Program-made: the position numbers and the translations under genes
Shown: positions 3,962 to 61,399 of the stretch, piece after piece
Layout of the letters: every line of letters starts with the position of its first letter
How positions within the stretch are numbered: position 1 is the stretch's first letter
Notes under the pieces: generated by a model
Told to the model about the DNA's origin: nothing
The model's input: only the letters and a program-made list of their open reading frames with translations
Database searches by the model: none
NCBI GenBank assembly: GCA_017938315.1
Contig: JAGBBV010000018.1
Coordinates: 1 to 61,834, forward strand
DNA from: Lachnospiraceae bacterium
GTDB taxonomy: Bacteria > Bacillota > Clostridia > Lachnospirales > Lachnospiraceae
Direction: 5' to 3'
DNA length: 61,834 bases

Positions 3962-6900
3962 ATGGACAAAGAATTAGTTTTTGAAGTATTAGGTATCAAA
4001 GCGACAAATAGTGAGGAAGAAATCAGAGGTGCTTATAGAGAACTGTTGAAACAGACAAACCCGGAGGACGATGCGGAAGGGTTTAAGCGTTTAAGACAGG
4101 CTTATGAAGAAGCACTCAAACTAATATCAGAAGGACAGCAGGAACGGGCGGAAGAGGATGATGCATTTAAGAATGAAGTAGATTTTTGGATTGATAAGGT
4201 AGACGGGCTTTATCAGGACGTATTGGAGCGTCGCAAGCCAAAGCTATGGCAGAAACTTCTGGAAGATCCGGTTTGTGAAGGACTTGATACATCTTTAGAG
4301 GCGCGGGAAAAGTTTTTGATATTTTTGATGGACCATATCCATTTACCTCATGAAATATGGAAAATAATAGAAGAAACCTTTGATATTAAAAAAGATTTAG
4401 AATCTTTGCAAGATAAGTTTCCGTCTAATTTCTTAAGTTATGTCCGATATTATATCGATAATCCTACATTTATTCCCTATGAAATGTTTGAATATAGGGA
4501 TTCATATAGAGAAATAGGTAATGGGGATGGATACATAGATAAATATTTGGAAATTAAGAAACAGCTTGACCGCGAAGAGGTAGAAGGCTGTATGCAGGCA
4601 CTTGAGGATTTGAAGGTATACTATATTTATCATCCTTTTGAAGATGTGGAAAAGCTTCGTGTTCTGGCGATGGAAGATACGTGCAGGGAAGGGGCTTCAT
4701 TAGCTACAAAGCTGTTAGGGAAGTATCCTGATTCTGATTATGTGATGTTGCATGCAGGCCGAATATTATGGGGAATTGGTGAAAAAGAGAAAGCCTACAG
4801 TTTGTGGAAAACTATTTTAGAAAAAGAGCCGGAGTATTATCTTGCAAAATATTTTTGTGTAATGCATTTGATGGAAAAGCAAAGTTATTATGAAGTACGG
4901 GAGTTGTTACTAGAGTTATTATCTGTCAATGGTAGAGATGAAGAGTTGCTGGGATGGATTAAAACCGTAAATAATGCTTTGATAGAAGAGTTTCGGGCGA
5001 TTTTGGCATCCGGAAAGGAGGATGTACGCCTTAGCAAAGAAGAAATGCAGTATAAGTTGGCTTGGTGTCTTTTTCAAAATGAAAGAATGGAAGAAGCGGA
5101 GAAACTACTTCCCACTTTGTCAAACGACGGAGAGAATGAATATCATTATTATCATTTTTACGGACAGTTATTATATAGGTTAGAACGTTATGAAGAAGCA
5201 ATTCCATATATAAAAAGATGGGCCGAAATGTGTACCGGACTTACTGATGATGGCACGAAGGAAACACAGAAGCGCATCAAGAGACAGGCTTTGGCACATG
5301 CAAAGTTGAGTTATTGCTATTATCAGATTGGAAAAAATGAAGAAGGTCAGGCAGAAGCACAGCTTGCAGTGGATATGGCAGCGGACAGAGAGGAGCTTTT
5401 GGAAAATTTGCATTATCAGGCAGGACAGTTGCTTGAGATTAAAGAATATGAAAAAGCAGTTGATGTGTGTGACCGTTTATTAGAAGAGGATGATGGATAT
5501 TATCCGGCTTATCTTACCAGACAGGAAGCCAGCTATCATATGCGAAGGGCACAGCAGGTAATTGACGATTATTATAATGCCATAAATATTTATCCCGGAT
5601 ATTATAAACCGTATTTGCTGGCGGCAGAGGTTTTCTTTATCTATGACCAGTATGAGGACGCAAAGGGTGTAATTGATCGTGCGAAGGAAAATCAGGTGGA
5701 ATTTTCCATGAAGATGAAGCTTTATGAAGCAAAAATTTTAAGGTCGTTAGCAACCTCGTCAGAAGAAAGAGCATACCCAAGAGAAATTCTGAAACAGTTA
5801 TCGGAAGAGTTGCATGAAGCAGAGCATGATATTGAAGATGTATCAGAAGTAGTATATGAACAAGGCCTTCTTTGCTGGGATGATGATAGAACGGACGAAG
5901 CAATTACATATATTAGACAGGCAATAGAGCAAAACCCTGAAAGAAAACAGTACAATCTTGTTTGTGGGCATATCTATTTGGAGGCGCAAAGGTATGAAGA
6001 GGCTTTGCAGGAATACAAGGAAGCAGAAATAGCTTATGAAGATCAACCCATCCTTTATTATAGCAGAGGATGCGTATACAATGGACTGGATAATGATGAA
6101 GCTTCAATTGATAATTTTAAAAAAGTATTAGAGCTGGATGAAACATACCGGGATACGAATGACAAATTATATAGTCTGTACAGAAAAATTTATAGGAGAT
6201 ACAATTCTAAGCAGGATTTTGCAACAGCACTTTATTATATTAATAAGGAAATTGAAATCAGAGAAAATGATGCAAATCTTTTTCACAGGGCGGTACTGTA
6301 TGACGATGCAATGAAAATGGAACTTGCAATAAAAGATTATGAGAAGTCATTGGAGTATGCCCCGGATGATCCGATAACATGGAGTAATATGGGATTTTCT
6401 TATCGTGCAGTGGGAAAATATAAAGAAGCAATTCGGTGCTTTCAAAAGTCAAAGGAACTTATGGACAGTGCAGACAGTGATGTCAGACCGTATTACCAGA
6501 TATCTAAATGCTATCTTTCATTAGGAAATTATGAAAGAGCGATAGAAGCATGTAAAGAAGGAATTGAAATATTCCCCAATGACAGCGATTTTTGGGAGCA
6601 GCTTGGGCTTATATACGAAAAGCAGGGAAAATACAAAGACGCTTTAAAGGCATATAAGAAAATGAAAGGTCTGAGTAACGACTACTATTCTGATATGGCG
6701 GATGTTTGGGAAGCCATGGGAGAACAGGAGAAGGCCGTTCAGATTATGGAAGAAGGTATTCGGGAGGTTGAAGATGATAAAAAAGCAGAATGTTATTCTC
6801 AGCTTGGAGACCTCTACAATGACAGATTGGAATATGGAAAAGCAGCACAGTACTATTTAAAATCAGCAACATTGCTATCAGAACCGATAGAGATTTTTGA

Positions 6901-9765: not shown

Positions 9766-10812
9766 ATGGAAAAAAAGATGTTATCGGAAAATGGAAAAAA
9801 ATATTTAATGATTCTTGCCGTTATACTAGGTGTCTATTTATTCATGAAGTATATCTCTCCTGTGGTTTCCCCATTTATTATAGCCTTTTTCTTAGCCGGA
9901 TTTCTTAGCCGGTTGGCAGGTAAACTGCCGATGAAAGTAAAGAAGCCTTTTTTGGCAGGAACCATGCTGCTTTTATTTGTAATATTAATTTTTATTTTAA
10001 TCGGTAGTGTTTTTGTGGGGATTTGGAATAAAGGTGGTGAACTGGCAGGGCAGCTTACTATTTTACAAAATGATATGTACCTGCTATTGGGTGACTGTTG
10101 TGACCGATTGGAACAAAGCTTTGGTGTAGACGGAGAAGCTATAGAAGATTATGTGCTTCAGCAGATTAATCTTTTTGCAGAAAATATGGATGTCAATATA
10201 TTTCCGGTGGTTATGAATAAGTCAGTGGGATATATGAAAAACATTGTAGGAGTAGCGGCATACTTGGGAATCACTGTGGTTGCCGTGTTTTTACTTTTGA
10301 AGGACTACGAAAAAATCGTCCGTTGGATGATGGGAAATGAAGATTTAGACGGCATCTGGGAAATTGCCGATAAGGTGATCCAGTATATTAAAACCCATAT
10401 CAAAGCACAGGGAACAATTCTTCTTATTATCAGTATTTTATGTGCGGGGGTACTTAGCCTGCTTGGATTAAAAGGCAGTATTTTATATGGAATTCTTACC
10501 GGGATTATGGATTTACTGCCGTTTATCGGAACAGGAATTATGCTGATACCCCTCGCCCTGTTCCAATTGCTAAAGGCAAACTATATCCATGCGGCTGCCA
10601 TCTTCCTTTTGTACGGGGGATGTGTTTTGATCAGGGAGTTTTTAGAGCCGAAGCTGATTGGAAATAAAGTAGGAATCTGGCCGGTGGGAATTCTGTTTGC
10701 AGTATTTGTTGGAATACAGCTATTCGGGGTGTTTGGGATTATCAAAGGGCCTATTGGCTTTGTCATTATCTGCGAGACCTGCCGTTATTTATTTGAAAAA
10801 AAGGAGCCGTAA
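9766..10812 (+). CDS. AI-2E family / YtvI-like polytopic membrane protein
   Basis: Integral membrane protein of 348 residues with about eight helices in the arrangement of the AI-2E transporter (UPF0118) family: paired helices near residues 10-60, one near 65-90, a soluble loop of ~75 residues, then helices from 160 on, with the conserved late motif GILTGIMDLLPFIGTGIMLIP. Members include the B. subtilis sporulation protein YtvI and Na+/H+ antiporter-like proteins, so the substrate is open. The ATG abuts the terminator T-run; the only purine-rich SD candidate (GGATGGG, about ten bases upstream) lies in the hairpin stem. A second ATG at 9778 is possible. Confidence 0.8.
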   Translation: MEKKMLSENGKKYLMILAVILGVYLFMKYISPVVSPFIIAFFLAGFLSRLAGKLPMKVKKPFLAGTMLLLFVILIFILIGSVFVGIWNKGGELAGQLTILQNDMYLLLGDCCDRLEQSFGVDGEAIEDYVLQQINLFAENMDVNIFPVVMNKSVGYMKNIVGVAAYLGITVVAVFLLLKDYEKIVRWMMGNEDLDGIWEIADKVIQYIKTHIKAQGTILLIISILCAGVLSLLGLKGSILYGILTGIMDLLPFIGTGIMLIPLALFQLLKANYIHAAAIFLLYGGCVLIREFLEPKLIGNKVGIWPVGILFAVFVGIQLFGVFGIIKGPIGFVIICETCRYLFEKKEP

Positions 10813-10884
10813 TATTTACGGCAGGTTAAAAAATGATATAATGAACAAAGTAGAAAAGAATGCTGATATAAGGCAGGAAGACAG

Positions 10885-12429
10885 ATGAAAAAAAAGGCAG
10901 GGAGTATTTTTACAACTGCATATCTGGTGATTATGTTTTGTGTATATCCTTTTTATATAGAGAACGGGTATATCAACATAGGTGAGGCAAAAAATCATTT
11001 CTTTTTGTGCGTGACCATGGCGGCATGCGTTGTGTTTACAATTTTGTGTGTTGCAAGGTGCATAAGCGGGATTATGGACAAGCGAAGGAATGGGCAGCAC
11101 CTGATGATTGACTTTAACAAAGTATCCGGGATAGATTTGCTGGTGCTTCTTTTTGCAACGCAGATTTTCTTATCCTATGTTTCTTCAAATTATAAAGATA
11201 TAACGCTTTGGGGAGAAGAGGGATGGTATATGGGACTTGTACCCTTACTTCTTCTGTGTGGCATCTATTTTTTTATCTCCCGTTTATGGCAGGGTGATGT
11301 ACACTTGGCATACCTGATTATGGGAGCGTCAGCGGTGGTGTTTCTCCTGGGAATTTGTAACCGCTATTCCTTTTATCCAATCAGCCTTGCAGGTAGCCAG
11401 CCGGGATTTATCTCTACCTTGGGAAATATTAATTGGTTTTGCGGATTTTTATCCGTAGTGGCACCTATTGGGATAGGAATGTTTGTGATAGAGGACCATG
11501 TGTGGAAAAAGGCGGCAGCAGGTCTGTATGCTGTGATTACCTTTATGACCGGGTTTGTACAGGGAAGTGACAGTATATTTTTATGGTATTTTGCAGTTTT
11601 TTTCCTGCTACTTTGGATTGCTGTGGGAAAAAAAGAATATGTAAGAAACTTTTTTCTGCTCCTTACTTTATTTGGACTATCGGCACAGATGGTAAAAGTG
11701 CTTGGATTGTTTGCCGTGGATAATTATAACCATAGCGCGGAGGGACTTTGCGGATATTTTATGAGTAGCAGCATTTCCTTGTGGATAACCGGAATGGGTT
11801 TGGCAGGCTTTCTTCTTACGGGAAGAAACACAGAAGGAAAAAAAGAAATAGGACAGGGCGGAGCAAAGAAAGCAAAGGGCATTCTACTGGGAAGTGTGGT
11901 AGTAATTTTGCTAACATGGCTTATCATGTCAGTTATTCACACGAAGTCGGGAATTTCTTTTTTGCAGGGAAGAAGCCTGTTTATGTTAGATGGCAATTGG
12001 GGACATGGAAGAGGAACTGCCTTTTTAGCAGGAATAAAAACCTTTGTGGAATTACCCCCATTACAGAAGTTATTTGGGGTAGGACCGGATGGCTTTGCAT
12101 CTGCGGTCTACGGATTGCCGGAAATAGCGATTATGCTTCGTAGGGCTTTCGGCGAAGCAAGACTTACCAATGCACATAATGAAATCATAACGGGACTTAT
12201 CAATACAGGAATTTTTGGAGTTTTGCCATATGTAAGTTTGTTATTTACAGCAGTAAGCAAGTTTATAAAAAAGGGCAGAGAGCAGAGGGAGCTATATTTG
12301 CTTGCACTTTGTATCTTCGGCTATTTTATTCACAACATGGTAAGTTTCGCACAGGTACTTAATATTCCCTTCCTCTTTATGATTTTGGGAATGGGAGAAG
12401 CGATTTGCAGAAAGCAAAAAAACCTTTAA
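10885..12429 (+). CDS. O-antigen ligase/polymerase-like membrane protein
   Basis: Polytopic protein of 514 residues with about 12 hydrophobic segments. The late periplasmic loop followed by NAHNEIITGLINTGIFGVLP is the characteristic H/N-x-E motif region of the Wzy/WaaL O-antigen ligase superfamily, whose members polymerise or transfer surface glycans at the outer face of the membrane. In a Gram-positive cell the acceptor would be a wall or capsule polymer or a glycoprotein. The ATG overlaps a short upstream frame and has AGGCAGGAAG upstream. No glycosyltransferases lie beside it; the pseudaminic-type sugar genes are 13 kb away. Exact substrate unknown. Confidence 0.75.
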   Translation: MKKKAGSIFTTAYLVIMFCVYPFYIENGYINIGEAKNHFFLCVTMAACVVFTILCVARCISGIMDKRRNGQHLMIDFNKVSGIDLLVLLFATQIFLSYVSSNYKDITLWGEEGWYMGLVPLLLLCGIYFFISRLWQGDVHLAYLIMGASAVVFLLGICNRYSFYPISLAGSQPGFISTLGNINWFCGFLSVVAPIGIGMFVIEDHVWKKAAAGLYAVITFMTGFVQGSDSIFLWYFAVFFLLLWIAVGKKEYVRNFFLLLTLFGLSAQMVKVLGLFAVDNYNHSAEGLCGYFMSSSISLWITGMGLAGFLLTGRNTEGKKEIGQGGAKKAKGILLGSVVVILLTWLIMSVIHTKSGISFLQGRSLFMLDGNWGHGRGTAFLAGIKTFVELPPLQKLFGVGPDGFASAVYGLPEIAIMLRRAFGEARLTNAHNEIITGLINTGIFGVLPYVSLLFTAVSKFIKKGREQRELYLLALCIFGYFIHNMVSFAQVLNIPFLFMILGMGEAICRKQKNL

Positions 12430-12435
12430 AATCAG

Positions 12436-12464
12436 TTGACTTTATGAAATATTGCTTTTATAAT
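12436..12464 (+). promoter_or_regulatory. Promoter of the proS T-box transcript
   Basis: TTGACT, 17-base spacer, TATAAT: a near-consensus vegetative promoter placed just before the T-box leader. Confidence 0.75.
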
Positions 12465-12477
12465 CAGAGCATATTCA

Positions 12478-12740
12478 AATAGTGAGACGAAGCGAAGAAG
12501 AGGACTAGTACAGATAGGAACCTTCCAGAGAGAAAATCCCCTGTTTTATATAGGGAGCTGAAAGATTTTTAAGCGGAATATTTGGAACCTGCCTCGGAGC
12601 TCTGTATGTAAGGCGAAGCCGAAGTACAGCGTAGCACCGGCGATAACGGTAAGAAAAGAGAATGTGTATGCATTAATTAGGGTGGTACCGCCGGATTCCG
12701 GTCCCTTGTGGGGTGGAAGGCGAACCGCCCTTTTGTGATT
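12478..12740 (+). promoter_or_regulatory. T-box leader controlling proS (proline-responsive)
   Basis: A T-box RNA binds uncharged tRNA and chooses between antitermination and termination. The T-box core AGGGTGGTACCGCC is at 12679-12692, followed by a GGCGAACCGCCCTTTTG terminator arm ending near 12737. Stem I contains the usual AGTA and AGAGAG-like elements and GCTGAAAG; the trinucleotide after GGAA (CCT, 12588-12590) is the probable specifier codon and reads proline, matching the gene downstream. A second CCT at 12592 is an alternative. Confidence 0.9.
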
Positions 12741-30625: not shown

Positions 30626-30707
30626 GGATGGATTCCCGAGTGGCCAAAGGGGACAGACTGTAAATCTGCTGCAAATTGCTTCGGTGGTTCGAATCCACCT
30701 CCATCCA
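30626..30707 (+). tRNA. tRNA-Tyr (GUA)
   Basis: Acceptor GGATGGA pairs with TCCATCC, T-arm GGTGGTTCGAATCCACC, anticodon loop CTGTAAA with anticodon GTA, and the long variable arm expected of bacterial tRNA-Tyr. Discriminator A, no encoded CCA. Confidence 0.96.
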
Positions 30708-30730
30708 TCGCTTCAATTTTATAAGCGTCC

Positions 30731-30814
30731 GCTGGTGTGGCGGAATAGGCAGACGCAAGGGACTTAAAATCCCTCGGGGGCAACCCCGTGCCGGTTCAAG
30801 TCCGGCCACCAGCA
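30731..30814 (+). tRNA. tRNA-Leu (UAA)
   Basis: Acceptor GCTGGTG pairs with CACCAGC; anticodon TAA in GACTTAAAATC; long variable arm (CGGGGGCAACCCCG); T-arm GCCGGTTCAAGTCCGGC. Class II tRNA without encoded CCA, 23 bases after tRNA-Tyr and probably co-transcribed. Confidence 0.96.
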
Positions 30815-53719: not shown

Positions 53720-53816
53720 ACAAAGAAATAAAAAAATAGTAATTTCGTACAATAATATGGTAAAAAGCTCCTTTTTATGGTAAAATAAAAGCGTTTTGAA
53801 AAAGGAGAATGTGGAA

Positions 53817-55940
53817 TTGAAAACATATAGGAAAACAAGGGAATTAATTGGGAAAAAATTACTAATTATAACAGACTGGCTGGAGCATACGTCTGCTTTT
53901 TTGGCGATTCGCCAGGGAATGATTATGCTGTTGCCTTTGCTCATTATCAGTACGCTGGATCTGCTGTTTATGAAAGCACCGATTCCAATCTGGCAGAAGT
54001 TTATCACAGAAGCCTTCGGCGGAAGAATTATTGAACTTTTTGAGTTTACATATCATGCCATAACAGGAAACTTTGCAATTCTTTTTGCGACGTCAACGAG
54101 TATTAGTTATGCGCTTTTGAAGCGGAAGGAAATGAAAAAAAAGACAAGCTATATCGATGCTTTGTTTGTTACGCTCATTACATTGACTTCCCTGTGTATT
54201 CATTTTGAGTTTCATAAGGACTTACTCTATCTGGATCAGTTCAGCAATAAAAATATGCTTACGGCTCTTTTGGTTTCTCTGATTTCCGGAAAGTTTTATT
54301 TTCTGATTAAGGAACAGATGAATGCCCATTTATATAAGCGTACGGTGAAAGAAGACAATTTCTTTATTGATATGTTGGAAGGAATTACAACGTCCGGCTT
54401 GATTATTGTATTCTTTTTTATAGTTGATTGTTTTATGGAGACATTTTTAGGAATTGCCAACATACAGGAACTGGTAAATATTATTGTTTCAAAAATAATT
54501 TTTATGTCGGACATTCCATGGCTTCAGGGTGTAGGAGTGTTATTCTTCACACAAATTATGTGGTTTTTCGGAATCCATGGCACATATGCGATGGAAAATG
54601 TAGTGCTGGAAAACTTTTCAGGAATTGGTTCCGAGATCTACAACGAAACATTTCAGAATGTATTTTTAAATATCGGAGGAAGTGGCTCAGGCTTATGTCT
54701 GGCTATTGCAATTATTATATTTTCCAAAAAGAAAAACATAAGAAATGTTGCTATGTTGGCAACACCCAGCCTTATGTTTAATGTAAGTGAAATTATGCTA
54801 TTCGGACTTCCGGTTATTTTCAATCCAATTTTTTTAATTCCGTTTTTACTTGTACCGCTTATTCATTATTTTATTTCTTATATTGCTATTTATGCCGGAA
54901 TTGTACCGCAGGTAACACAGCAGGTAGATTGGGTGACTCCCCTTTTTGTGAACAGCTACAGGGCTTGTGATTCCTATAAGGGAATTATTCTACAGCTTTT
55001 TTGTATTGCTGTGGGGGTGTGTATCTATAAGCCCTTTGTGGAACTGTTTGGAGTCCAGCAGGAAAAATATATTAAATTTAAAATACAAGAACTTACTTTT
55101 GAATATAAAAAGCAGGAAGAAGTAACAGCATTTACATGCTTAACGGAAAGAGAAGACGAAATCGGAAGCACGGCAAGAGCTTTGGCGGCAGATCTTGAGA
55201 AAGCGATTAAAAACAGAGAACTGTATATGCTATATCAGCCGCAAATAGATTGCTCAGATGTCTGTACCGGTGCAGAAGCGCTTCTCAGGTGGGAGCATCC
55301 TATCGCAGGATTTATCTATCCGCCGCTCATCATACAGTTGGCAAAGGAAAAATGTCTTCTCAGCAAATTGGAAGAATACATTTTTGATACCGTGGCAGGT
55401 GCCATTAAAGAAATTGAAAAGGATGTTGATTCCGAATTTAAGGTGACAGTGAATATTACCGGAAAATCGCTGGAATGGGACGGATTTGAAGAATGTCTGC
55501 AAAATTGCGTAGAGAGACATGGCATTTCTACAAATCAGATGTGGCTGGAAATAACGGAAAGTGATGCACTTTCTTCATCCAATGATATTCTTGAAAAGTT
55601 AAAGAAATTAAAAGATAAGGGGTTCAAATTCCTAATTGATGATTTTGGGATGGGACATACCTCCATGCTTTATCTGCAAACAAGTTATTTTGACGTAGTA
55701 AAACTGGATGGCTCTCTGACCAGAGATGTATTAGAAAACGAAAGAAACATGGAAATTATTGCATCAATTGTCCACTTGGGACGTTCCTTACATTTTGCAA
55801 CAGTTGCAGAGTATGTTGAAACCCGTGAACAGAGAGGAAAGCTGGAAGTAATCGGGTGTGATGCTTTCCAGGGCTATTTGTACAGTGAGCCTATTCATTT
55901 AAATGCATTGATTAACTGGATGCAGGTTCATAACGCATAA
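53817..55940 (+). CDS. PTS EIIC domain fused to EAL c-di-GMP phosphodiesterase
   Basis: 707-residue membrane protein joining a sugar-permease fold to a c-di-GMP-degrading enzyme. Residues 1 to about 430 are an EIIC domain of the lactose/cellobiose type with ~10 helices; the sugar-site motifs [14 protein letters not shown] (His254) and [20 protein letters not shown] (Glu325, at the NEP position) are kept. A charged linker ([15 protein letters not shown]) leads to an EAL domain (about 455-707) with all catalytic pieces: [10 protein letters not shown] (EAL 487-489), [27 protein letters not shown] (Asp608-609), [17 protein letters not shown] and DAFQGY. No EIIA or EIIB is encoded nearby, so the EIIC part more likely senses than transports. 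Start TTG 53817 lies nine bases after AAAGGAG; GTG 53811 is too close. Eight bases separate the stop from the unit containing GH51. Confidence 0.9.
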
Positions 55941-55971: not shown

Positions 55972-57480
55972 ATGGCAAAATTATACATTAATGAACATGT
56001 AAAAAAAGGACACATTAATCCGGAGATTTACGGCCATTTTGCAGAGCATTTGGGAAGATGTATTTACGAAGGCTTGTATGTTGGAGAAGATTCCAAAATC
56101 CCTAATGTAAACGGGATGCGTAAGGACGTTGTGGAAGCCCTGAAAGAAATGGGTGTATCGGTTCTCCGTTGGCCCGGAGGATGCTTTGCGGATGAATATC
56201 ATTGGAAAGATGGTATTGGACCTAAAAAAGACAGAAAGAAAATGGTCAATACAAACTGGGGCGGTGTGACAGAAGATAACAGTTTCGGTACCCATGAATT
56301 TTTTGAACTTTGTAAGCAGCTTGGATGTAAAACATATGTGAACGGTAACGTGGGAAGCGGAAGCGTTCAGGAAATGTCAGAGTGGATAGAATATATCACT
56401 TTTGACGGTGTTTCACCTATGGCAGATTTGCGAAAAGCAAATGGTCATGAGGAGGCATGGAAGCTTGACTATTTTGGTGTCGGTAATGAAAACTGGGGTT
56501 GTGGCGGAAATATGACACCGGAATACTATGGCAATGAGTATCGCAGATATCAGACCTATGTGCGCCAATATAAAAAGGATGCACCGGTTAGGAAGATTTG
56601 CTGCGGTGCAAATTCTGCAGACTATGAGTGGACCGAGACGGTGCTTAAGACCTGCTTTGCATTCCCGCATCATGAAACGGGATTCATGGATGGACTTTCC
56701 CTTCATTATTACACTGTGCCGGGAGATACATGGGAGAATAAGGGAAGCGCTACAGATTTTACAGATAAGGAATGGTATAAGACCCTTGCGAAAGCAAAAA
56801 AAATAGAAGAACTCATTGAGCGCCATGGGGCAATTATGGATACTTTTGATCCCGAAAAGAAAATCGGTATGATGGTAGACGAATGGGGTTGCTGGTTTGA
56901 TGTAGAGCCGGGTACCAATCCGGGATTTTTGTATCAGCAAAATACCATGAGGGATGCTTTAGTTGCAGGCTTAAGCCTGAATATTTTCAATAAGCATTGT
57001 GACCGTGTAAAAATGGCGTGTATTGCACAGATGGTAAATGTTCTTCAGGCAGTTGCCCTTACAGAAGGTGCGAAGATGATTCTGACACCTACCTACCATG
57101 TGTTCCATATGTATAAGGCGCATCAGGACGGTGAACTGCTTCAAAGCGAATTATCAGATAATGCATTAATCGGTATAGAGGAAGACTATCAGGTTCCGAT
57201 GCTTAGTGAATCCGTATCTGTGAATGAGGACGGAACAATTACAGTGACATTAAATAATCTTTCTTTGGATAGAGGCGAAGATGTAGAGATTTCTTTCAGG
57301 GATTTAATCCCTGCATCAATAGAAGGCGTTATTTTGAAAGGCGACATGCACGATTATAACAGCTTCGAAGAACCATCTAAGGTAAAAGAAGAAAGCTTTG
57401 AGGCCTATGAGATAAACGGTCATAGTGTAACAGTGAATGTTCCGGCATGTAGTGTGCTTAGTCTTAAAATCAAAGGATAA
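55972..57480 (+). CDS. abfA: GH51 alpha-L-arabinofuranosidase
   Basis: Releases arabinose from arabinan or arabinoxylan oligosaccharides in the cytoplasm (no signal peptide). GH51 barrel begins [20 protein letters not shown]; acid/base Glu173 in VGNENWG and nucleophile Glu304 in VDEWGCW, at positions close to those of Geobacillus AbfA; the jelly-roll domain forms the last ~110 residues. 502 residues. ATG 55972 follows AAGGAGG by eight bases. It begins 31 bases after the EIIC-EAL gene and is followed four bases later by a small zinc protein, suggesting one operon. Confidence 0.95.
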
Positions 57481-60278: not shown

Positions 60279-60464
60279 ATAAATATAAAACAGGAAATCA
60301 ATGAAAGTAAGCAAAGAGTCCAGAAGCTACAAAACCAAATATCTAACTGCTTCGACTTAGAGCTAAAAAGACATCTGGAATATGAACTTAAACAGGAATC
60401 ACTGAAACTTGAAAGTTACATACTGCTTTTGGAGCTTGCACACAAGGCAGGTAGTTCTGTATGA
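60279..60464 (+). CDS. Small coiled-coil protein with apparent ATA start
   Basis: 61 codons from ATA 60279: (I/M)NIKQEINESKQRVQKLQNQI then SNCFDLELKRHLEYELKQES, a heptad-rich helical protein. AAAGGAG at 60264-60270 is followed after exactly eight bases by ATA AAT ATA. An in-frame GTG at 60270 overlaps the SD, and no ATG is available in this part of the frame. The stop overlaps the ATG of the recombinase gene (ATGA), so the pair is coupled; it may be an accessory to the recombinase. Confidence 0.55.
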   Translation: MNIKQEINESKQRVQKLQNQISNCFDLELKRHLEYELKQESLKLESYILLLELAHKAGSSV

Positions 60465-61399
60465 GCAGAAAGACCTCATTCAAAGAGCAGATGTTTCGAG
60501 CCTTAAATGCTTTAAACTGTTACGGACAATCAAAATATCAAGCTAAACAGGAAAGCTACAAGCAAGGAAACAAAGGCAGGGTTAAAGGCATATATAGCAA
60601 AAAGACAATGCAGGACTATAAACAGGTTGCGGAACAGTTCCAGAGTTGGAGCAAAATCAAAGGCTACAACTTCAAGAGCCTTGCAGATGTGTCTGATAGT
60701 CATATCCTGCAATACCTGACAGAGAGACAGGCACAGGGTAAATCCTCTTGGACAATCAGTAGAGACCTTTCTGCTTTAAACAAAATATTTAACAAGAGTA
60801 TCACTAAAAAGGATTCTGGTCTTAGAAGCAGAAAGAACTCTGACATTAAGAACAACAGAGGTTTCGGAAATAACTACCGTTCTTCTATTTATAAGAAGAA
60901 TAAGGAACTGATAGACTTTATATCTTCTACTGGTATCAGAAGGCAAAGTATTACTGTTATCAATCCTTCTAATGCAATTAGAGATAAAGAAGGTACGGTA
61001 ATCGGTTTTTCGGTTATTGAAAAAGGTGGTAAGCATAGGAACTGTTATGTTATTAAAAGTAAACAGGACGCTGTTACTTCCTTTGTAAATAAGCACCAAT
61101 CCCAGAAGGGAAACCAACCATTCTGGACTAAGGTAGATAAAAACCTTAATACCCATTGGTATCGTGCAGAATATGCAAAAACCCTATACAATGACCTGAT
61201 AACTGCAAACAATCACAGACAGGACTATTTTGAGGGTTACAGAGATACCTTCGTCAATTCCCAAAGATTAGAACAGGCAACAGACGGACACGGACAGACA
61301 ACAAAGGGATATGATACAGAAGCCTTAGCTGTTGTTAGTCAGAACTTGGGGCATAACAGGATTGATGTGGTGTATTCTAACTACTTGAGCAGATTTTAA
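60461..61399 (+). CDS. Tyrosine recombinase (integrase-like)
   Basis: 312 residues. A SAM-like N-terminal DNA-binding part (about 45-115: KTMQDYKQVAEQFQSWSKIK, WTISRDLSALNKIFNKS) is followed by a catalytic domain. Probable active-site residues: Arg in SSTGIRRQSITV, HWYRAEYAKTLY for the H-x-x-R box, LGHNRIDVV for the second His/Arg, and Tyr in VYSNYLSRF near the C-terminus. The order fits the family although the sequence is divergent. It would move or resolve the element that occupies the right end of the window. ATG 60461 overlaps the stop of the small upstream gene. Confidence 0.72.
   Translation: MSRKTSFKEQMFRALNALNCYGQSKYQAKQESYKQGNKGRVKGIYSKKTMQDYKQVAEQFQSWSKIKGYNFKSLADVSDSHILQYLTERQAQGKSSWTISRDLSALNKIFNKSITKKDSGLRSRKNSDIKNNRGFGNNYRSSIYKKNKELIDFISSTGIRRQSITVINPSNAIRDKEGTVIGFSVIEKGGKHRNCYVIKSKQDAVTSFVNKHQSQKGNQPFWTKVDKNLNTHWYRAEYAKTLYNDLITANNHRQDYFEGYRDTFVNSQRLEQATDGHGQTTKGYDTEALAVVSQNLGHNRIDVVYSNYLSRF

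Follow-up and report, generated by a model that had tools for sequence, protein, structure and literature searches.

The gene studied here lies on the forward strand at positions 53817-55940 of a contig from a Lachnospiraceae bacterium, of which we analysed a window of 61,834 nucleotides, and encodes a fusion protein of 707 amino acids. A likely ribosome-binding site (AAGGAG, 53802-53807, +) is found nine bases 5' of the TTG codon at 53817, making this a good start (alternatives are TTG at 53796 and GTG at 53811), and the frame is uninterrupted up to the stop codon at 55938-55940. An earlier note, made from the sequence alone, had described a single frame that joins a lactose/cellobiose-type EIIC sugar permease to an EAL domain, and this was confirmed with both domains above their Pfam cut-offs: PTS_EIIC at residues 32-347 with 67.3 bits (cut-off 30.7) and EAL at residues 458-692 (55188-55892, +) with 202.3 bits (cut-off 31.3). 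The lactose/cellobiose EIIC models of NCBIfam match residues 27-415 at 154.2 bits, which is under their curated cut-offs (434.45 for TIGR00359 and 236 for TIGR00410), and with the Pfam match they place the EIIC domain at 53895-55061 (+). Using a profile built from the EIIC parts of 25 fusions, we matched one sequence in the PDB, the diacetylchitobiose EIIC (ChbC) of entry 3qnq (307 bits, at E<=0.001). The next gene (55972-57480, +) starts 31 bases downstream and does encode an alpha-L-arabinofuranosidase, as the same note had read it, and is a possible operon partner. Elsewhere in the window, a protein with a phage-integrase N-terminal SAM-like domain is encoded at 60461-61399, close to the contig end. 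A c-di-GMP riboswitch near the fusion gene was considered and rejected, as the only Rfam matches of the window at gathering cut-offs are two tRNA genes (30626-30814).

Searches of related genomes showed that this architecture recurs. The EIIC query matched 47 of 200 genomes of the same family, among them 25 with intact EIIC-EAL frames, one with an in-frame TGA (L014) and one with an EIIC-histidine kinase (L036), the remaining matches being of ordinary length or weak. A sample of 391 genomes of the class yielded 15 intact fusions, one fusion cut by a contig end and a second EIIC-kinase (L194), and 398 genomes of the phylum yielded six intact fusions and one split by a frame change (L154); each of the three samples includes the source genome, and one relative is common to the class and phylum samples. 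A wider scan for relatives yielded at least 80 loci, and among those listed 34 have both domains. The fusion family spans four named phyla and one Synergistales record, and named carriers among the matches listed are Kineothrix, Eisenbergiella tayi, Lactonifactor, Sporomusa ovata, Treponema porcinum, Desulfovibrio, Azoarcus, Duganella and Nisaea, as well as a Clostridioides difficile record. In a plasmid collection, 4180 records matched the query and two of these covered at least 80% of it. All 25 members of our alignment A1, the source protein included, have both Pfam domains. The fusions are 28-47% identical to the source protein, and identity between its EIIC part and those of 24 relatives is 24-39%.

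Some of these loci have features of their own. Duganella radicis (L076) carries two EIIC-EAL frames, at 4389-6626 and 9951-12491, about 3.3 kb apart. The C. difficile fusion (L124, NZ_CP149720.1:39180-53234) is annotated only as an EAL domain-containing protein and adjoins rlmH; its record is called a plasmid, yet holds housekeeping genes such as that for adenylosuccinate synthase. In Treponema porcinum (L045:3383-10779) the fusion lies between apparent rpoC and rpsL genes, as read from their translations, an odd site for a sensor gene. The interruptions of L014 (in-frame TGA) and L154 (frame change) occur at similar positions, towards the end of the EIIC domain (about 375-385 in the profile).

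Active EAL domains share a catalytic set made up of the Glu of the EAL motif, Asn, Glu, an Asp-Asp pair, Lys, Glu and Gln. All eight residues are present in the source protein (E487, N546, E578, D608, D609, K629, E665, and Q685), in agreement with the claim that every catalytic motif is intact, and they are kept in 67/67 fusions. Judged by these residues, the EAL domain keeps the catalytic set of active c-di-GMP phosphodiesterases. The spacing of the two domains is also nearly fixed. Counted from a conserved Pro-Phe at the end of the EIIC to the catalytic Glu, the distance is exactly 80 residues in 40/67 fusions and lies between 77 and 83 in 61/67, with outliers at 91 (four fusions), 93 (one) and 86 (one). 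Five loci (L056, L060, L061, L062, and L064), which form one clade of mostly rumen Lachnospiraceae, have linkers 11 to 13 residues beyond the usual 80, and an addition of 11 residues would fit a coiled-coil repeat. That the linker length is nearly fixed among proteins of 28-47% identity argues for mechanical coupling of the domains. An AlphaFold2 model from the 25-row alignment (mean pLDDT 85.5, pTM 0.76) predicts residues 387-436 (54975-55124, +) as one helix, in which the last membrane helix continues into the linker. Confidence is low, at about 59, in the loop of residues 171-180; and the orientation of the domains in the model is not to be trusted, because a structure comparison with VIA-align returned a list filled by EAL chains, with the 3qnq row at an rmsd of 9.5. 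In EIIC permeases the last helices are part of the mobile transport domain, and both EIIC and EAL domains act as dimers, which would make a switch driven by sugar simple to envisage.

To gain insight into possible transport partners, we searched for two families, the lactose/cellobiose-type EIIB (PF02302) and EIIA (PF02255). The source genome (G000; 2.63 Mb, 97.2% complete) has no match to either, so that the absence of EIIA and EIIB genes already noted for the window holds genome-wide for these two types. The fusion is the only PF02378 match of this genome and one of its eight EAL domain matches. Enzyme I and HPr are encoded, and some PTS phosphorylation is therefore possible. The earlier note had named an EIIB partner as the mark of an ordinary transporter; PF02302 was found within 5 kb of 0/27 fused EIIC genes compared with 29/32 ordinary ones, contig ends limiting the range for some, and the closest match on the same contig as a fused EIIC is 188 kb away. 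The 32 ordinary genes are those counted out of 34 in the searched genomes (G148:C12:305952 and G183:C63:5038 were left out), and five more ordinary matches sat in genomes outside the EIIB search. Anywhere in the genome, PF02302 is present in 16 of 26 genomes with an EAL fusion and missing from 10, three of which are less than 90% complete. PF02255 occurs in 4 of these 26 genomes, as opposed to 14 of the 15 with an ordinary EIIC only, and in all four there is also an ordinary EIIC whose EIIA and EIIB genes lie no more than 5 kb away.

Phylogenetic analysis separated the fused from the ordinary EIICs by a single branch in each of three unrooted trees that share most of their rows. Support for this branch was 100/99 in a tree of 81 rows, 100 in a quick tree of 102 rows, and 100/98 in a tree of 65 rows that includes five annotated permeases, one of them E. 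coli ChbC, where the split appeared in all 200 bootstrap trees. E. coli ChbC falls on the ordinary side and the source EIIC on the fused side. The 65-row tree is a chosen subset of 38 EAL fusions, two kinase fusions and 25 ordinary EIICs; the 102-row tree and the residue counts below omit split or truncated loci (L014, L072, L134, L144, L154, and L168), duplicates (L001, L008, L044, L059, and L148) and near-duplicates (L050, L057, L062, L064, L074, L157, and L165). Two EIICs of the fused branch carry HisKA and HATPase_c domains, namely L036 (G104), which has a receiver domain too, and L194 (G926). They are sisters in the 65-row tree (100/99), are placed among the fused EIICs, and are putative permease-type sensors of histidine kinases.

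The two sides of the tree also differ in a short motif, PxxVP, that is common to most ordinary EIICs. In the numbering of the source protein, P176, V179 and P180 are found in 39, 38 and 39 of 42 ordinary EIICs versus 4, 0 and 0 of 60 fused ones (59 with EAL and one with a kinase). Position 180 is mostly Asp in the fused group (37), and the source protein, which lacks the motif, has T, E and D at 176, 179 and 180. Loci added later gave the same picture, with each residue in 13/13 ordinary EIICs versus 2, 0 and 0 of 13 EAL fusions (near-copies L202 and L203 included), and none in the second kinase EIIC or in the fusion cut by a contig end. The motif is present in 5/5 annotated permeases (E. coli ChbC and the four others) and in 3qnq. 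Its site is the loop of residues 173-180 (54333-54356, +), between predicted helices 144-172 and 181-211, and we infer from the positive charges of this loop (three K/R) that it faces the cytoplasm; the pattern suggests that the loop may be tied to EIIB docking. There are exceptions on the ordinary side. L152 and L153 lie beside EIIB-/EIIA-like genes, as read from translations, and lack PxxVP, and L155, an ordinary EIIC with similar neighbours, is likely the third exception among the 42, as the P180 counts leave three. The motif thus cannot be essential for the use of EIIB, and these cases lower our confidence in both the receptor reading and its extension to the whole branch, given below. The three loci also adjoin an apparent sugar-binding protein of an ABC transporter, again read from translations. 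The columns of P326, P371 and P227 separate fused from ordinary EIICs as well, and 3qnq has no prolines at 326 and 371.

His254 (codon 54576-54578, +) and Glu325 (codon 54789-54791, +) are both found where the earlier note had put them, and by comparison with ChbC we take them to be the sugar site of the EIIC. The His is present in 56/60 fused and 34/42 ordinary EIICs, leaving four fused ones without it, and the Glu in 58/60 and 41/42. One fusion, L039:1495-3585, has no sugar-site His and an Asp in place of the Glu together with a complete EAL site, and its ligand is possibly different or lost.

The neighbouring arabinofuranosidase might be taken to indicate the ligand, but we rejected arabinan-specific sensing as a reading of this context. 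No homologue of the enzyme was found in the loci of 36 named relatives (E up to 1e-10; flanks of at most 8 kb, many of them shorter), and the neighbours of the fusion in the 13 relatives listed are mixed. The arabinofuranosidase is therefore no conserved companion of the fusion and offers no guide to the ligand.

With a permease that seemingly lacks its transport partners and is joined to EAL by a near-fixed link, the protein is probably a sugar receptor and not a transporter. We consider it reasonably probable that the fusion is a membrane sugar receptor derived from a PTS permease, in which sugar is not passed to EIIB and the last helix switches the EAL domain. In such a mechanism, an EIIC dimer would bind a disaccharide through the kept His/Glu site, and handing the bound sugar on to EIIB would be prevented by the absence of this partner and by the change in the loop that most ordinary EIICs have in common. 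The sugar-driven movement of the transport domain would be carried by the last membrane helix, extending as a signalling helix of near-fixed length that may alter the dimer state of the EAL domain and hence the hydrolysis of c-di-GMP. This develops the suggestion of the earlier note that the permease fold acts as a receptor driving c-di-GMP breakdown, which is strengthened by the separate branch, the missing EIIB and EIIA, the changed loop, the mostly kept sugar site, the linker, the kept catalytic residues and the kinase versions, while the hint at arabino-oligosaccharides is weak. For the family as a whole, we lean slightly towards a scenario in which one branch of the lactose/cellobiose permeases gave up transport and turned into a modular receptor domain for sugars, found in several phyla, coupled through a near-fixed helix to c-di-GMP phosphodiesterases and, in one sub-branch, to histidine kinases, and sensing outside the PTS phosphorylation chain.

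The EIIC could instead still move sugar, by facilitated diffusion or by PTS transport that uses an EIIB from a different family, with the EAL domain reading the transport flux. The kept fold and His/Glu site, the encoded EI and HPr, and the three PxxVP-less ordinary EIICs beside EIIB-like genes would all be compatible with this, whereas the source genome has neither PF02302 nor PF02255, EIIB is near none of the 27 fused genes and the fused EIICs form a separate branch, and we regard it as unlikely. A different proposal is that the EIIC is a phosphoreceiver and that PTS phosphorylation sets the activity of the EAL domain. To our knowledge, EIIC itself is not phosphorylated, and this general consideration, like the absence of PF02255 and PF02302 from the source genome, speaks against it. 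Passages of a 2022 review in J Bacteriol (PMC8846402) do describe EIIC as a phosphoreceiver, and the control of PdeS by EIIA-Glc in Vibrio cholerae (Heo et al. 2019, PMC6877527) is a precedent; in the case of PdeS, however, the EIIA is a protein of its own, and EIIC is not named in the main text of the latter paper, so that we give phosphorylation sensing a very low probability.

It might also be that the EIIC has no ligand and serves only as an inert membrane anchor that dimerises the EAL domain, as L039 with its altered sugar site and full EAL site could suggest. Such an anchor would not need to keep the His (56/60 fused EIICs) and the Glu (58/60) at the divergence seen among the EIIC parts of the 24 relatives, which weakens this explanation and makes it highly improbable. 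The interrupted frames of L014 and L154 could be taken as signs of an assembly chimera or a broken gene, but with 25 intact fusions in the family sample, 15 in the class sample and relatives in other genera and phyla, the architecture is no local chimera, and we assign this possibility almost no weight.

Transporter domains serve as the sensor part of known regulators such as the histidine kinases CbrA and CrbS, which have a sodium-solute symporter fold. The fusion resembles them in using a transporter fold as the sensor part, but differs in that this is a PTS permease. Compared with the transporters ChbC, CelB and 3qnq, it has no PF02302 or PF02255 partner in its genome, has no PxxVP, lies on the other side of the tree and has an added EAL domain. 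With PdeS and EIIA-Glc (PMC6877527) it shares the link from sugar status to c-di-GMP breakdown, although the permease is here part of the enzyme itself. The caution that such fusions may already be known proved right, as PTS_EIIC is catalogued as a rare domain of c-di-GMP proteins in PMC8846402; its proteins have the same Pfam domain classes, and its passages on them say nothing of a separate branch, of lost partners or of a rule for linker length. Passages of PMC2453333, PMC6200980, PMC10333796 and PMC1183210 do not mention an EIIC-EAL fusion. We found no functional study of an EIIC-EAL protein in the open-access PMC literature, a scope that leaves out most subscription papers. The architecture is therefore already catalogued, and what is added here is its reading as a receptor family without EIIB and with a signature of its own.

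We know of no established input for most c-di-GMP enzymes. Because a solved template (3qnq) exists and the binding site is mostly kept, the input of these proteins can be guessed and could be tested in Lachnospiraceae, Treponema and the Clostridioides difficile record. If the receptor reading is true, the description of EIIC in the literature as a phosphoreceiver would need correcting for this group of proteins. Sugar supply would then be tied directly to c-di-GMP and hence perhaps to motility or attachment, the source genome having three flagellin-N domain matches.
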